Shown one piece after another: positions 6,305 through 11,750 of a DNA stretch of 64,000 bases. The notes beneath the pieces were generated by a model that saw only the letters and a list, made by a program, of their open reading frames with translations, was not told where the DNA came from and did no database searches. Each line of letters starts with the position of its first letter. The stretch's first letter is position 1. Origin of the DNA: an uncultured Desulfovibrio sp. (GTDB taxonomy: Bacteria > Desulfobacterota > Desulfovibrionia > Desulfovibrionales > Desulfovibrionaceae). The position numbers and the translations under genes are program-made. The stretch spans positions 1 to 64,000 of the forward strand of contig CAJXRQ010000002.1 in the NCBI GenBank assembly GCA_913060505.1. Direction: 5' to 3'.

Positions 6305-8077
6305 TCAGGCTGCCTGTTCCGAGTCTTTCCCGCATACGCAACGGTCCACTTCGCGAACTTTTTTGAGCACTTTTTTAATGATGCGTTTGTACTGGCCGAG
6401 GTCCTGCGGCTCGTAGCGGAACTTGGCTCTGGTCAACCCTGCCATGTCCAGGGTTTCATTGAATAGGTATGGCATATACAGGGGGTTCTGCTTGATGAAC
6501 ATTTCCACTTCGCCCATGGTTTTGTGGATTTCTTCCTGATTCTTGCCCACTTTTTTGAACAGACGGGAAAGTCGTTTTTCCACACTGCGGAACGAAACAC
6601 TCCATCTGTGGCTGTCTGGGGTCAGGTTCAACGGTTGGCGAGGATGGCAGCAAGCCATGAGTTCCTGCATGAAGTTGTCCACACTGCCGGGAACCGAGGA
6701 AAGAACACCTTTGTTGTAGGCCGTCTGCATATCGACCATTTTCGTTCCCTCAATTATCGCACCGCCGCCATACAGGTTGAATATCGGCAGATTTGCCTGC
6801 TGGATGTCTGCTTCCATTTCACGTTTTGCCGTGAGGTACTGCACTGTGGAGATGATATCTTCTCCATGAGCATTTTTGATTTTCTGGTGCAATTTCGGGT
6901 TGAATTCGCTTTTGATTTCTGACGCGTGGTGGCCTTTGGCGTGAGTACGGTCTTTGGGCCAGGCAAAATCCTGACCAGCCAATACGATGTGATTAACTCC
7001 CATCCAGCGCAAGAGTCGGGAAAGCGAAAGGCTTACGTTTCCGCCTGCATCCAATACCAGATCGTGGTTCTGCATGACGAAAGTACCCATTCCCCCCATT
7101 GTCCAAAGTGGGAGCGTTGGGCCAGGGTAACGTCTCACCAACTCGGGATTGCATTTGGTGGAATATATGAAAGGAACATCGCGTGCGAACTCCGGATCGA
7201 GATGGTCGTATGCTCGCAGCATGCTGCCGTCATAGTCAATTGCCAGGCAGAAATGCGGCTTGATCCCAAGGTTTTGCAGGACGGGCATGGTCTGCAACGC
7301 TGTAGTATACAAAGCATAGCCCGGCGATTTGCGTAATTCCTCGGCATGATCAGAGAGCGAAGGACCTGCACCCAATATTACGGCCGCCACACCGGTGCCG
7401 CGCTCTTTCATGGGTAACAGGCTGCCATTTTCCATGGCGCGCTGGTAATTCTGGAGTTCGTTGCCAACCATGATGTCCTGACGAAGACGGAGTGTCGCCA
7501 ATTCTACGGAAAAGTTTTCCAAGAGATGTTTGGTATCGCGCGCCCATTTTGCATACTCGGGACCGAGTTGTTGGCTGGGAACGTCCAGACGCATGTAAAT
7601 GCGGCCGTAGATATATTGAAGGTCCAGATTTTTGACGACCTGCTGCATATAGTCCTTGCGCGGCAGGCAGAAATGCAATTTTTTGTTTTCAATGAAAGCC
7701 TTGTAATCGGACTGGCCGAGACAGGCCATGAGCATTTCCGGCTGGGGCTCAAGCACGATAATTTTGTGGGTATCGGGTGTATTCATGAGCAGGTGATTGA
7801 TCCCGTAGCCCACATTGCAACCGATGATGATGGTGGCACTTGTGGTCGCTTTTTCATCTTCGGGCGTCCATTTATCATAGAAATGAAAAGGCGGCATGGC
7901 ATCGAACATGCCGTTCCCGTTGTCCATTTTCCAGTCCACAAGCCCGTGCTTGTTTTCGATGAGCCGCTCTTCGAGTCTTGACTGGTCCAACTGTTGGCTG
8001 GAGAGCCATGAGTACACGGGGTGTCCGATTTCTTTCAGGACTTTGATGTTCGATTCAAGGAATGGGTATCCTGCCAT
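6305..8077 (-). CDS. Maf-type motility accessory factor / DUF115 glycosyltransferase-like protein
   Basis: Cytoplasmic protein of 590 residues. The centre carries the DUF115 (MAF_flag10, 6-hydroxymethylpterin pyrophosphokinase MptE-like) signature: VAAVILGAGPSLSDH (about residues 231-245), followed by LCLAIDYDGS-type and QDFAWPKDRTHAKG stretches. An N-terminal Rossmann-like part (ATIIIGCNVGYGINHLL, IIVLEPQPEM) resembles the front domain of flagellin-glycosylating Maf proteins, which transfer nonulosonic acids such as pseudaminic or legionaminic acid to flagellin. The ATG at 8077 has a good ribosome site (AGGAAGG). A sigma-54-like promoter lies at 8136-8151, consistent with control alongside flagellar genes. 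No flagellin gene is in the window. The specific sugar is unknown. Confidence 0.7.
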   Translation of the reverse strand: MAGYPFLESNIKVLKEIGHPVYSWLSSQQLDQSRLEERLIENKHGLVDWKMDNGNGMFDAMPPFHFYDKWTPEDEKATTSATIIIGCNVGYGINHLLMNTPDTHKIIVLEPQPEMLMACLGQSDYKAFIENKKLHFCLPRKDYMQQVVKNLDLQYIYGRIYMRLDVPSQQLGPEYAKWARDTKHLLENFSVELATLRLRQDIMVGNELQNYQRAMENGSLLPMKERGTGVAAVILGAGPSLSDHAEELRKSPGYALYTTALQTMPVLQNLGIKPHFCLAIDYDGSMLRAYDHLDPEFARDVPFIYSTKCNPELVRRYPGPTLPLWTMGGMGTFVMQNHDLVLDAGGNVSLSLSRLLRWMGVNHIVLAGQDFAWPKDRTHAKGHHASEIKSEFNPKLHQKIKNAHGEDIISTVQYLTAKREMEADIQQANLPIFNLYGGGAIIEGTKMVDMQTAYNKGVLSSVPGSVDNFMQELMACCHPRQPLNLTPDSHRWSVSFRSVEKRLSRLFKKVGKNQEEIHKTMGEVEMFIKQNPLYMPYLFNETLDMAGLTRAKFRYEPQDLGQYKRIIKKVLKKVREVDRCVCGKDSEQAA

Positions 8078-8229: not shown

Positions 8230-10506
8230 ATGAGTCCTTACGTTCTCGATCATGTTGGCGGCACCCCTTTGGTGGAAATACGGCACCTTAATCCAAACCC
8301 CAATGTCAAGATTTTGGCCAAGTTGGAATCGTGTAATCCCGGAGGGTCCATCAAGGATCGTGTGGCCTTGGCGATGGTGCGGGCTGCAGAAGAATCTGGC
8401 GAACTCGTTCCGGGAAAGACTGTTATCGAGCCAACGAGCGGCAATACGGGTATTGGGCTTGCCATGGTCTGTGCTGTCCGAGGATATCGCGTCAAGCTGC
8501 TTATGAGCGAAAACGCCAGTGAAGAACGGCGCATGATTTTGCGCGCCTATGGTGCGGAAATCGAACTGACTCCCGGACACATGGGCACAGACGGAGCCAT
8601 TGAGTTGGCATATCGCATGGCTCGCGAGGAGTCTGACAAGTATGTGCTCATGGATCAATATAACAATCCTGCCTGCATTGATGCCCATTATAATGGAACC
8701 GGACTGGAAATATGGGAGCAGACCGGGGGAGAAGTGACGCACGCTGTTTGTACGTTGGGGACTTCGGGAACAGCCATGGGATGCGCAAAAAGATTGCATG
8801 AGATGGGCGATGTTTTCGTGGCAGCCGTGGAACCGTATGCAGGGCACAAAATTCAGGGACTCAAGAATATGCATGAGTCATATCCTCCTGGAATATATGA
8901 TAAATCTAAGTTGGATGTTGTGTTGCGAATTGAAGACGAAGAAGCATTCGAGTTGTGCCGCAAGCTGGCGCACGAGGAGGGCCTGTTTGTGGGCATGAGT
9001 TCGGGCGCAGCCATGGGCGGGGCCTTGAAGCTGGCCGAGAACATGGACAGCGGCGTCATTGTGGTAATATTCCCGGACGGCGGCGAACGATATCTGAGCA
9101 CACCGCTCTTTGCGGCAAATGAGGCTCAGGGAATGTGCGTGACGTCGGTGACCGGAGAGTCGGTCTGCCTTGATTGCTCCGGCGGTCCCGGCCTGTATTC
9201 CATGGGGCCGAGCCTTGATAATCCTGCCGGTCTGGATGCCTGGCGGCGGGTAATCCTGCTTGATGTCATGGCTCGTTGCTTGCGGGGGCGGGGAGCGGAT
9301 GTCCATAGTGCATGTGGGCTTTCCGATATGGATGACCGTACATTGACGGCAGCGCGCGAGACAGGGGAGGAGCGTGAAGCATTCGTTCAACAGGCCCGTC
9401 AGAATATTATGGATCGTGCTGCCTCCCTGGGGGTGGACAGCAGCATGAATTGGCCTTTGGCTGTGCAAGGGCAGGAAAAGGCGCTTGATATCTGCCGTTC
9501 ACTGCTTGGGCACGGTTTGGCTTACGAAAAATTACGAAGCGTCTATTTCGACGTGTTTCGCGATGCCCGGTATGGGGAATTGGGAACGCAGGACATGACC
9601 AAGGTCTCGGCTGGCCGGACCGTGGATCTTGATGCCTACGTCAAGGACAACCCTCTGGATTTCACGTTGCTTAAACGTGCGACCCTCATGGATCTCAAGC
9701 GTGGTGACGTGCTTGAGACCGAGTGGGGCAATGTGCGGCCTACGTGGTTTTTGCAACATGCAGCAGCGGCTTTGGCTGGTCTGGATCGTATTGACGTTTT
9801 TCTGGGGAGTGAATCCCATCGTTTCCCGCATCTTGAAAACCTGCGAGCCATTTGGAGTGCTGCTGGTCGCGAATTGCAGGCGTGGATGGTTGAGCCCCAG
9901 GTTGCGGCGGATCCCGGGCAGAGTCTTGATGACATTCTGGAACAGGTTGGCAACGCCCGGGCCGTTCGGCTTTGGTTACTTTCCGCTTCGCATCACAAGG
10001 CGCTTTGTGCTGGTTCCGGGAGTGTTGCCATGTGGGTACGCAACTGGCAAAGAATTCAGGATGGTGCTGCGGTGCTAAGTCTTGCCGTAGGCAACAGGGG
10101 AGAGGATGTCTCTGACGAAGTGCAGCAGGCGGTATTTGATCTCAAGGCCGGTTTTGCAGAAGCCTTGGATGCGGATATCTCGCTGCATCGTTTTTGGCCG
10201 GTGCTGTTCAGGTTCATCAAGCAGGTCAATGGTTGGAGCATCGGGCCGGGCATGAGTGGTGCCGCCGCCCGTCATTGCCTTGATCAGTTGTTGCAGATGG
10301 ACGACGTGTTGGGAATTGTGGATAGGGAGGGCCTGCCAATTGCGCTTTCCCAATTGCCGGCGCAGGTTCAACAGATGGTTGCGGATCGTCAGAAAGCGCG
10401 TGCCGCAAAGGATTATATAGCTTCGGACCATTTGCGGGAAGCCTTGGCGAAAGCCGGGTTTAAGGTCAGGGACAGTACCTCAGGCCCACAGATTTACCGT
10501 ATTTAA
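8230..10506 (+). CDS. Cysteine synthase fused to a degenerate cysteinyl-tRNA synthetase-like domain
   Basis: A 758-residue two-part protein. Residues 1-300 are a full PLP-dependent O-acetylserine sulfhydrylase: SIKDR with the PLP lysine K42, TSGNTG (69-74), the phosphate loop GTSGTAMG and PDGGERYLST. Residues 315-758 align by eye along the whole length of cysteinyl-tRNA synthetase: LYSMGPS for VYVCGPT, LSDMDDRTL for ITDIDDK, NPLDFTLLKRA for DPLDFxLWK, VRPTWFLQHAA for GRPGWHIECSA, RFPHLENLRA for KFPHHENExA, and a C-terminal KARAAKDYIASDHLREAL. The catalytic signatures are gone: HIGH is replaced by PAGLDA near 332, KMSKS by AADPGQ near 558, and two of the zinc ligands (first and second Cys) are lost. 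It is therefore probably a working sulfhydrylase with a non-aminoacylating tRNA-synthetase-like tail that could bind tRNA, bind CysE or regulate. Ribosome site AAGGAAG. Confidence 0.85.
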   Translation: MSPYVLDHVGGTPLVEIRHLNPNPNVKILAKLESCNPGGSIKDRVALAMVRAAEESGELVPGKTVIEPTSGNTGIGLAMVCAVRGYRVKLLMSENASEERRMILRAYGAEIELTPGHMGTDGAIELAYRMAREESDKYVLMDQYNNPACIDAHYNGTGLEIWEQTGGEVTHAVCTLGTSGTAMGCAKRLHEMGDVFVAAVEPYAGHKIQGLKNMHESYPPGIYDKSKLDVVLRIEDEEAFELCRKLAHEEGLFVGMSSGAAMGGALKLAENMDSGVIVVIFPDGGERYLSTPLFAANEAQGMCVTSVTGESVCLDCSGGPGLYSMGPSLDNPAGLDAWRRVILLDVMARCLRGRGADVHSACGLSDMDDRTLTAARETGEEREAFVQQARQNIMDRAASLGVDSSMNWPLAVQGQEKALDICRSLLGHGLAYEKLRSVYFDVFRDARYGELGTQDMTKVSAGRTVDLDAYVKDNPLDFTLLKRATLMDLKRGDVLETEWGNVRPTWFLQHAAAALAGLDRIDVFLGSESHRFPHLENLRAIWSAAGRELQAWMVEPQVAADPGQSLDDILEQVGNARAVRLWLLSASHHKALCAGSGSVAMWVRNWQRIQDGAAVLSLAVGNRGEDVSDEVQQAVFDLKAGFAEALDADISLHRFWPVLFRFIKQVNGWSIGPGMSGAAARHCLDQLLQMDDVLGIVDREGLPIALSQLPAQVQQMVADRQKARAAKDYIASDHLREALAKAGFKVRDSTSGPQIYRI

Positions 10507-10523
10507 TCAAGATACCAACGTGG

Positions 10524-10573
10524 TTGCCTCCAGCGGACAAAGGTGGTGATTTGTTTTGCTGGAGGCCTTTTTT
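10524..10573 (+). terminator. Rho-independent terminator after the CysK fusion gene
   Basis: GCCTCCAGC (10526-10534) pairs with GCTGGAGGC (10558-10566), and a run of T follows (CTTTTTT). The loop is 23 nt. Confidence 0.75.
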
Positions 10574-10604: not shown

Positions 10605-11750
10605 TTAATCGAAGAGGTCCGAGTACTCCCCATATCCTTCAGCTTCCAGTTCAGCGGCCGGAATAAAGCGCAACGCAGCGGAATTGATGCAATAACGCAA
10701 TCCTGTGGGAGCTGGACCATCATTGAAAACATGGCCCAGGTGAGAATCACTCTGTGCGCTTCGCACTTCGGTTCGAACCGAGAGTAATGTCCTGTCTTCT
10801 CTTTCCACCAGATTTTTCGGAACAAGCGGTCGGGTGAAGCTGGGCCAACCCGATCCTGAGTCGAATTTGTCCCTGGAACTGAATAACGGTTCTCCTGAAA
10901 CAATATCCACGTAGATCCCCGGCTGGTGATTGTTCCAGTATTCGTTGTCAAACGGTGGTTCTGTTCCCTGCTTACGAACTACATGATATTGCAGGGGCGT
11001 CAGTGTTTGCTTCAAGTTTGCGTCCGCTTCCGTGGTATCCGGTTTTTTCTGTTGCTTTTCAGGAGAAGGCAAGGTGATCGGACAGCCTTTTCCTCCCCAA
11101 TGCCGTTCTGTAAAGCGATCCCGTCCTGAGAAATTTCGATAGGTATTGTAGCGTGCAGGATTTTTTTTGTAGTAATCCTGATGATATTCCTCAGCCGGAT
11201 AAAAGCTGGTAAACGGAAGTACTTTCGTTACCACCGAAGAGGAGAATCGTCCTGATTCTTCAAGCGCTTCCTTGGATTGTTCCGCTAACAGCCGCTGGTC
11301 GTCAGAGTGATAAAAAATGGCCGAGGTGTATTGAAAACCTCGATCTCCGAATGAGCCTCCTTCATCTGTCGGGTCAATGTGTTTCCAAAACAATGCAAGG
11401 ATTTGTTGATAACTGATTTTTGTCGGATCAAAACGGATTTGTACGGCTTCCCGGTGGCCGGTTCTGCCACTGGCAACTTCTTCATACGTCGGGGCATGTT
11501 CGTCTCCGCCTGCGTATCCCGAGGTGGCTTTTTCAACTCCCGGAAGCTTCTTGAAGTCTGCCTCAACACACCAGAAACACCCTCCAGCGAGTGTTGCTGT
11601 TTGCAGTTTGTCTGTGTTTTCGGTCATGGATTTTGCCTCCGCTAAGGGGGTGAAGAGCAATAAGGAAATTGAAATTAACAGTCCTGCATAAACAAGCCTT
11701 ACCAACGGCCAAATTGTGGAGTCATGTTTTTTATGCTGTCTGGCAATCAT
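10605..11750 (-). CDS. msrAB: Exported bifunctional methionine sulfoxide reductase MsrA-MsrB
   Basis: A 381-residue fusion repairing both stereoisomers of oxidised methionine. Residues 1-39 form a signal peptide-like segment (basic N-terminus, hydrophobic core, PLAEAK), so the enzyme should work in the periplasm or at the membrane. The MsrA domain holds GCFWC (57-61) with catalytic Cys58 and [22 protein letters not shown]. The MsrB domain ends with [11 protein letters not shown], whose Cys354 is the expected nucleophile; the four zinc cysteines seen in some MsrBs are absent. The gene is monocistronic: a terminator shared with the cysK fusion lies downstream and a dyad element lies about 20 nt upstream of the start. 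Membrane or periplasmic MsrAB in an anaerobe is consistent with oxidative-stress defence. The electron donor partner is not nearby. Confidence 0.9.

Follow-up and report, generated by a model that had tools for sequence, protein, structure and literature searches.

A cysteine synthase fused to a cysteinyl-tRNA synthetase-like tail in Desulfobacterota suggests a direct link between cysteine supply and tRNA-Cys

Cysteine synthases of the CysM/CysK type, known as O-acetylserine or O-phosphoserine sulfhydrylases (PDB 2bhs and 3dki), and canonical bacterial cysteinyl-tRNA synthetases (CysRS; NCBIfam TIGR00435; PDB 1li5 and 1u0b) are the described proteins closest to the two halves of the fusion reported here. 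The fusion has the fold and PLP residues of the former, but it adds a CysRS-like tail of ~440 residues and 19 of the 47 genomes examined have it with no CysE-like gene alongside. With canonical CysRS, the tail shares a near-full-length fold and the residues that contact G34 of the anticodon. Unlike canonical CysRS, it lies behind a cysteine synthase, lacks the HIGH and KMSKS motifs and, in the order Desulfovibrionales from which our sequence comes, lacks the zinc site.

Synthetase relatives that do not aminoacylate, such as HisZ (with HisG) and the HisRS-like domain of GCN2, control amino-acid supply or sense tRNA, although they belong to another synthetase class and have other partners than the CysRS-like tail. 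In the open-access literature we found no non-aminoacylating regulatory case for CysRS. A CysRS paralogue that works outside translation is MshC of mycothiol synthesis (PMC2922099). Like the tail, MshC is a CysRS relative, and it appears among the PDB fold matches of the tail (3c8z_A); in contrast to MshC, for which active ligase function is described, the fusion tail has broken catalytic motifs and a retained anticodon domain. The family models span 411 positions for MshC and 466 for CysRS. Cysteine synthesis that depends on tRNA is described for the SepRS-SepCysE-SepCysS system (PMC5424206 and PMC8762117), in which PLP-dependent cysteine formation is coupled to tRNA-Cys. We propose the fusion as a parallel, with the difference that SepRS charges O-phosphoserine onto tRNA, whereas the fusion tail is without aminoacylation motifs. 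A CysK-CysRS fusion is not described in the open-access literature that we searched, and none is described in the accessible parts of PMC9855970, PMC1779556 and PMC5764234. DVU0663, called cysK, is increased in biofilm according to PMC3431258.

A CysM-type front half and a CysRS-like tail

The window, a stretch of 64,000 nucleotides from an uncultured Desulfovibrio sp., contains a single open reading frame of 758 residues (8230-10506, + strand) that encodes an intact CysK/CysM-type PLP enzyme followed by a full-length CysRS-like domain whose catalytic motifs are not in working form. The gene appears to stand alone, with the preceding gene on the opposite strand and the next gene, an MsrA-MsrB fusion, convergent. 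The divergent upstream gene (6305-8077, - strand) encodes an MptE-like/Maf-like protein, and the convergent one (10605-11750, - strand) carries the two methionine sulfoxide reductase domains, MsrA and MsrB, in a single gene. A possible intrinsic terminator lies at 10526..10573 (+ strand), where a 9-bp inverted repeat (10526-10534 and 10558-10566) is followed by a T run; at 23, its loop exceeds the maximum allowed in our terminator scan, and that scan found terminator-like sites at or below their number in shuffled sequences. Control by a T-box or other RNA leader was dropped as a candidate because an Rfam search of the 64-kb window gave no match at gathering scores. We surveyed gene neighbours at 92 loci plus the window, and the gene caller recovered the fusion at 83 of these, or at 85 of 93 by a looser count. 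The commonest neighbour family, MptE/Maf-like, was found at 21 of the 92 loci, in most cases upstream and in opposite orientation, and the next two families at 10 and 9. A partner gene was therefore ruled out from the neighbourhood, with no family above 21 of 92 loci.

The 130 distinct full-length fusions in which motifs were scored comprise 79 of the window's order and 51 from other parts of the phylum; they were compared with 22 canonical CysRS. The cysteine synthase half (residues 1-295; 8230..9114, + strand) is as intact as an earlier reading of the sequence alone had claimed: Pfam PALP matches residues 6-283 (E 3e-71), the PLP lysine K42 (8353-8355, + strand) and S70-G-N-T73 are present in 130/130 fusions, and the phosphate-loop motif, GTSGT in the window (residues 177-181; 8758-8772, + strand), is GT[ST]GT in 129/130 and GTCGT in the remaining one. 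NCBIfam scores for this half are 352.6 bits for cysM and 295.4 bits for cysK, each below its own cut-off, and for cysKM (cut-off 344.15 bits) 341.7 on the protein and 344.9 in the genome search. Its top PDB sequence match is E. coli CysM (2bhs), and the 50 PDB fold matches listed for the whole-protein model consist of cysteine synthases and close relatives. Judged by NCBIfam scores and PDB sequence matches, the front half thus appears closest to CysM. A lysine in the motif QGLKNM, K212 (8863..8865, + strand), is invariant in 130/130 fusions, and from the phmmer end points (match ranges of equal length to 3dwi and 3dki) its position approximates Arg220 of Mtb CysM. This position is a hint, and no more than that, of O-phosphoserine use.

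The tail (residues 321-758; 9190..10503, + strand) matches Pfam tRNA-synt_1e over residues 322-553 (E 1.2e-24) and, in the anticodon-binding domain, Pfam CysS_C over residues 708-754 (10351..10491, + strand; E 2.9e-7). The NCBIfam cysS model TIGR00435 aligns with residues 322-755 from model position 24 to 463 of 466, at 129.9 bits against a cut-off of 340, and the MshC model TIGR03447 gives 42 bits, under its cut-off of 485.1. The full-length structure model is mediocre (pLDDT 72.4) because only eight usable sequences were available, and residues 425-504 and some shorter stretches fall under 50 pLDDT. When residues 312-758 were modelled separately, the tail reached pLDDT 79.5 and pTM 0.79, with its own residues 1-5 and 116-167 under 50, 52 of which lie in the core described below. 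The nearest PDB fold match of the latter model is E. coli CysRS in complex with tRNA-Cys (1u0b_B, E 1.2e-18). The first 14 matches are all CysRS, and MshC (3c8z_A, E 1.2e-12) follows at row 15, so a CysRS fold is supported by the modelling outside the core. The sequence-only reading had taken the tail for a whole-length CysRS including its C-terminal end and had proposed a fold prediction on residues 315-758; TIGR00435 coverage and the predicted fold both agree with it. Its suggestion of a partner surface like CysE found no support in the C-terminal end: a terminal isoleucine that would plug the CysK active site, as in CysE, was ruled out, as only 2/130 fusions end in Ile. In a search of a plasmid collection, the 10 records listed of 598 were all below 30% identity, and the named features among them were ordinary cysS.

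Spread of the fusion and state of the aminoacylation motifs

The fusion is widespread among sulfate-reducing bacteria and their relatives. Within the window's family, 95 of 199 genomes match at E < 1e-200, with four clearly cut (G189, G061, G153 and G152), and the tail is present in 6/6 families sampled from the order. Among 395 genomes drawn from the phylum, a tail match of at least 1e-30 quality was obtained for 155, six of them from the window's own family; this number is an upper bound for fusion-bearing genomes in the draw. Named relatives with the fusion include Salidesulfovibrio brasiliensis and Pseudodesulfovibrio, and the tails of the 130 fusions are 25-82% identical to that of the window. 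Several genera of the same family (g40, g21, g38, g42, g19 and others) had no fusion in the genomes sampled; g40 gave only a weak tail match, as expected from a canonical cysS, and a CysE-like match is present in most genomes of this genus. A same-genus genome carries a second tail copy in a 503-aa open frame (G284:C8:26316-27650); its other match lies in a frame of 764 aa. In another genome, a third cysS match (G337:C1:594025-595398, 435.8 bits) lies in a 742-aa open frame, beyond the canonical cysS and the fusion, and is perhaps a second fusion.

When 44 tails, drawn from the 130, were placed in a tree with 26 canonical CysRS, all 44 fell beyond one branch with support of 100. The tree came from a quick search with a single E. 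coli sequence as the sole outsider and with odd letter composition in 17 rows, and for these reasons it does not date the fusion. A pseudogene or local decay product was ruled out because there are 130 full-length members with low dN/dS. The tail is under strong constraint, with dN/dS ~0.08 overall and ~0.017 for residues 425-505, values that come from one pair with dS near saturation. A separate canonical cysS, as the sequence-only reading anticipated, is present in the window's genome (G000:C7:97631-99079, 544 bits), and a separate cysS over the cut-off is found in 50/51 fusion genomes outside the order.

Both catalytic motifs are missing from the window's tail. HIGH is replaced, as had been noted, but at a corrected place: HIGH of E. 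coli CysRS (37-40) aligns with G334-L-D-A337 (9229..9240, + strand), which is followed by conserved R339-R340. KMSKS is likewise gone, although not by substitution with AADPGQ as first proposed; on alignment to E. coli CysRS the loop is missing around A559-Q564 (9904..9921, + strand). Across the set, the second lysine of KMSKS is retained in 0/130 fusions, HIGH with both histidines in 0/130 and HxxH/N in 2/130. Of the zinc ligands, three of four rather than the two counted earlier are replaced in the window (C28 by M325, C209 by H510 and E238 by L538), and H234 is retained as H534. Over all 130 fusions, C28 is retained in 38, C209 in 44, H234 in 129 and E238 in 33, so that the complete zinc/cysteine site is found in 28/130 tails, comprising 28/51 outside the order and 0/79 inside it. 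Damage to the aminoacylation motifs is therefore universal in this set, whereas loss of the cysteine site is confined to some lineages, including that of the window.

Some tails outside the order stand nearer to canonical CysRS. Four of them (L147, L150, L155 and L158) retain the zinc/cysteine site but have HLGL where HIGH is expected and KMSRSAGN where KMSKSLGN is expected; they exceed the cysS equivalog cut-off and so may carry the annotation of an active cysteine--tRNA ligase. Two others (L153 and L156) have HIGN or HLGN at the place of HIGH, together with KMSQS or KMSRS. The canonical cysS of the window's own genome also carries HIGN, and the HIGH half of the motif in these two tails may therefore be sound. 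A HIGH-like string occurs anywhere in only three tails, and in one (L087) it lies away from the motif's place. Many outside-order tails exceed the cysS cut-off, reaching up to 460 bits despite their broken motifs, which may make them a hazard for annotation.

These scores and near-canonical motifs are what would speak for residual CysRS-type chemistry in some lineages, either aminoacylation or the PLP-dependent persulfide formation that has been reported for CysRS. We regard this as very improbable, given that no fusion keeps the second KMSKS lysine, both motifs are absent from the window's tail, most tails have lost the second KIIK lysine and a separate cysS accompanies the fusion in 50/51 genomes outside the order. 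A persulfide synthase role specifically was ruled out on the grounds that the KIIK and KMSK lysines are mostly absent.

The retained zinc site in other lineages raises the possibility that the tail senses a ligand without tRNA, the old amino-acid/adenylate pocket binding cysteine or another metabolite and controlling the synthase half; HisZ, a HisRS relative, controls HisG. Consistent with this, all four zinc ligands are present in the 28/51 tails outside the order, most of which also have T68, H224 and D229, and the majority of invariant columns fall in the pocket region. However, zinc-based cysteine sensing cannot be the shared function, since the zinc set is found in 0/79 tails of the window's order, and ligand sensing leaves the retention of the G34 residues (see below) unexplained; we consider it unlikely. 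Sensing of cysteine may be an additional function of the tail in lineages that keep the zinc site; tails of the window's order cannot use that site for this purpose.

Anticodon-reading residues, the remodelled core and the role of the tail

E. coli CysRS contacts G34 via R423, R427, W432 and D436 (PMC12684709), which correspond to R720, R724, Y729 and D733 of the window's protein. Checking the conservation of anticodon contacts, as the sequence-only reading had suggested, we found R423 as R in 130 of 130 fusions, R427 as R in 119 and K in 10, W432 as F, W or Y in 130 and D436 as D in 130, with the four positions jointly retained in 129/130. They make up four of only six columns conserved to this degree among the 48 scorable columns of the anticodon domain. 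The chance of drawing them is 7.7e-5 if columns are taken as exchangeable, an assumption that does not hold strictly, given that R439 and D451 are just as fixed and could be structural. The G34 residues are conserved in canonical CysRS too and could be retained partly for folding. Retention of columns that are invariant in canonical CysRS averages 0.77 in the anticodon domain, compared with 0.32-0.54 in five other regions. An argument from a basic, RNA-like anticodon domain was dropped: the pI of window residues 701-758 is 10, and the family median for the domain is 5.2, compared with 5.1 in canonical CysRS.

The most conserved part of the tail lies elsewhere. A remodelled core at residues 425-508 (9502..9753, + strand), defined by conserved columns over the 130 fusions and poorly modelled, contains the motifs KGLAYEKLRSVYFDV, TVDL, YVKDNP.DFTLLKR, DLK and WGNVRP.W. 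The longest run of invariant columns sits in this catalytic core rather than in the anticodon domain, and the catalytic core has gained invariant residues, e.g., R340, Y470, R483 and K490. In one close pair, pN is 0.169 in the anticodon domain and 0.019 in the core, with dS of the anticodon domain saturated.

Constraint that peaks in the core and not in the anticodon domain would fit a scaffold, in which the dead tail determines how the synthase half oligomerizes or how stable it is and has lost any contact with RNA; dead synthetase folds are able to serve as scaffolds. A scaffold has no obvious need for four G34 positions fixed in 129/130 fusions while much of the anticodon domain drifts, and we judge pure scaffolding improbable. 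A second role for the tail, which the sequence-only reading had proposed, is supported by phylum-wide conservation, low dN/dS, broken catalytic motifs and the retained G34 residues; while its observation is confirmed, its interpretation as a whole is partly supported.

Anticodon-reading residues retained in an otherwise dead half suggest a direct connection between cysteine supply and tRNA. Docking of tRNA-Cys is the simplest account, because the members share an intact synthase, broken charging motifs and an anticodon-reading face. We tentatively propose a CysM-type synthase that is able to dispense with CysE and whose pseudo-CysRS tail docks tRNA-Cys by its anticodon and so couples tRNA-Cys to the synthase. 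Going by the retained residues, the tail probably does bind tRNA-Cys. Docked tRNA-Cys, probably in its uncharged form, would alter the activity of the synthase half, with the outcome that cysteine would be produced when tRNA-Cys needs it; such gating of the synthase by charging state goes a step further, and we hold it to be possible rather than probable. A bolder version, about which we are doubtful, makes uncharged tRNA-Cys an allosteric ligand of the CysE-free synthase, read via its GCA anticodon in a feedback loop old enough to span the phylum and, at its boldest, has the synthase half act on an amino acid that the remodelled pocket holds beside the end of the tRNA. Should tRNA-Cys indeed bind to the tail, bacteria would have, in one polypeptide and with no transcription step, a direct connection at the protein level between the charging of a tRNA and the making of its amino acid.

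The same anticodon residues, and the fact that synthesis and charging are consecutive pathway steps, would also be compatible with handover, whereby the synthase would be carried by its tail to tRNA-Cys or the true CysRS and new cysteine would be passed on locally, in loose analogy to the SepRS-SepCysE-SepCysS complex. Free cysteine diffuses fast, however, and the 92 loci show no conserved gene neighbourhood, so that handover seems quite unlikely. We thus find handover, pure scaffolding and residual chemistry less likely than docking of tRNA-Cys.

Cysteine pathway genes in fusion-bearing genomes

We searched 47 fusion genomes with cysteine synthase, CysE and SerA queries, using thresholds of E <= 1e-20 for CysE-like genes and 1e-30 for cysteine synthases. 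Ten of the genomes, the window's own included, were picked for the absence of a CysE-like match, 11 others from the order had one, and the remaining 26, from among 51 outside-order genomes with fetched fusions, were picked blind to the CysE result. Standalone CysK and a CysE-like match occur in 28 of the 47 genomes, both together in 28/28; in the other 19, the fusion is the sole cysteine synthase at 1e-30, and a CysE-like match is found in 0/19. The 26 blind-picked genomes follow the same pattern without exception, 17 having a second CysK plus a CysE-like gene and 9 having the fusion only and no CysE-like gene. The curated cysE cut-off was exceeded in 0/297 and 0/51 genomes, and enzyme activity of the CysE-like genes is an assumption here. 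In the window's own genome, the one cysteine synthase over the cut-off is the fusion itself, and the CysE family has no match better than 1.0e-8; single absences in this genome are weak evidence because the assembly is 81% complete.

CysE-like genes and standalone CysK are thus gained or lost jointly, and the fusion persists in their absence. Since 19/47 genomes are fusion-only and none of these has a CysE-like gene, the fusion apparently functions independently of the CysE-CysK system. O-acetylserine made by CysE is disfavoured as its substrate, because the CysE-like/CysK pair is dispensable where the fusion persists. O-phosphoserine is a possible substrate on the basis of gene content and K212. 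SerA exceeds its cut-off in 9/9 fusion-only genomes outside the order and in 0/10 inside it, where four of the 10 have a weaker match (1e-80 or better). We therefore did not accept O-phosphoserine as the settled substrate: the absence of CysE, K212 and SerA outside the order fit, but the in-order count of 0/10 does not.

If the proposal holds, sulfate reducers and their relatives would have a CysE-free route to cysteine, beside the serine gap of Desulfovibrio vulgaris, whose serine supply and synthesis are reported as unresolved (PMC7311316). Across the order, SerA exceeds its cut-off in 0/21 genomes, with weaker matches of 1e-80 or better in six, a deficit that accords with that gap.
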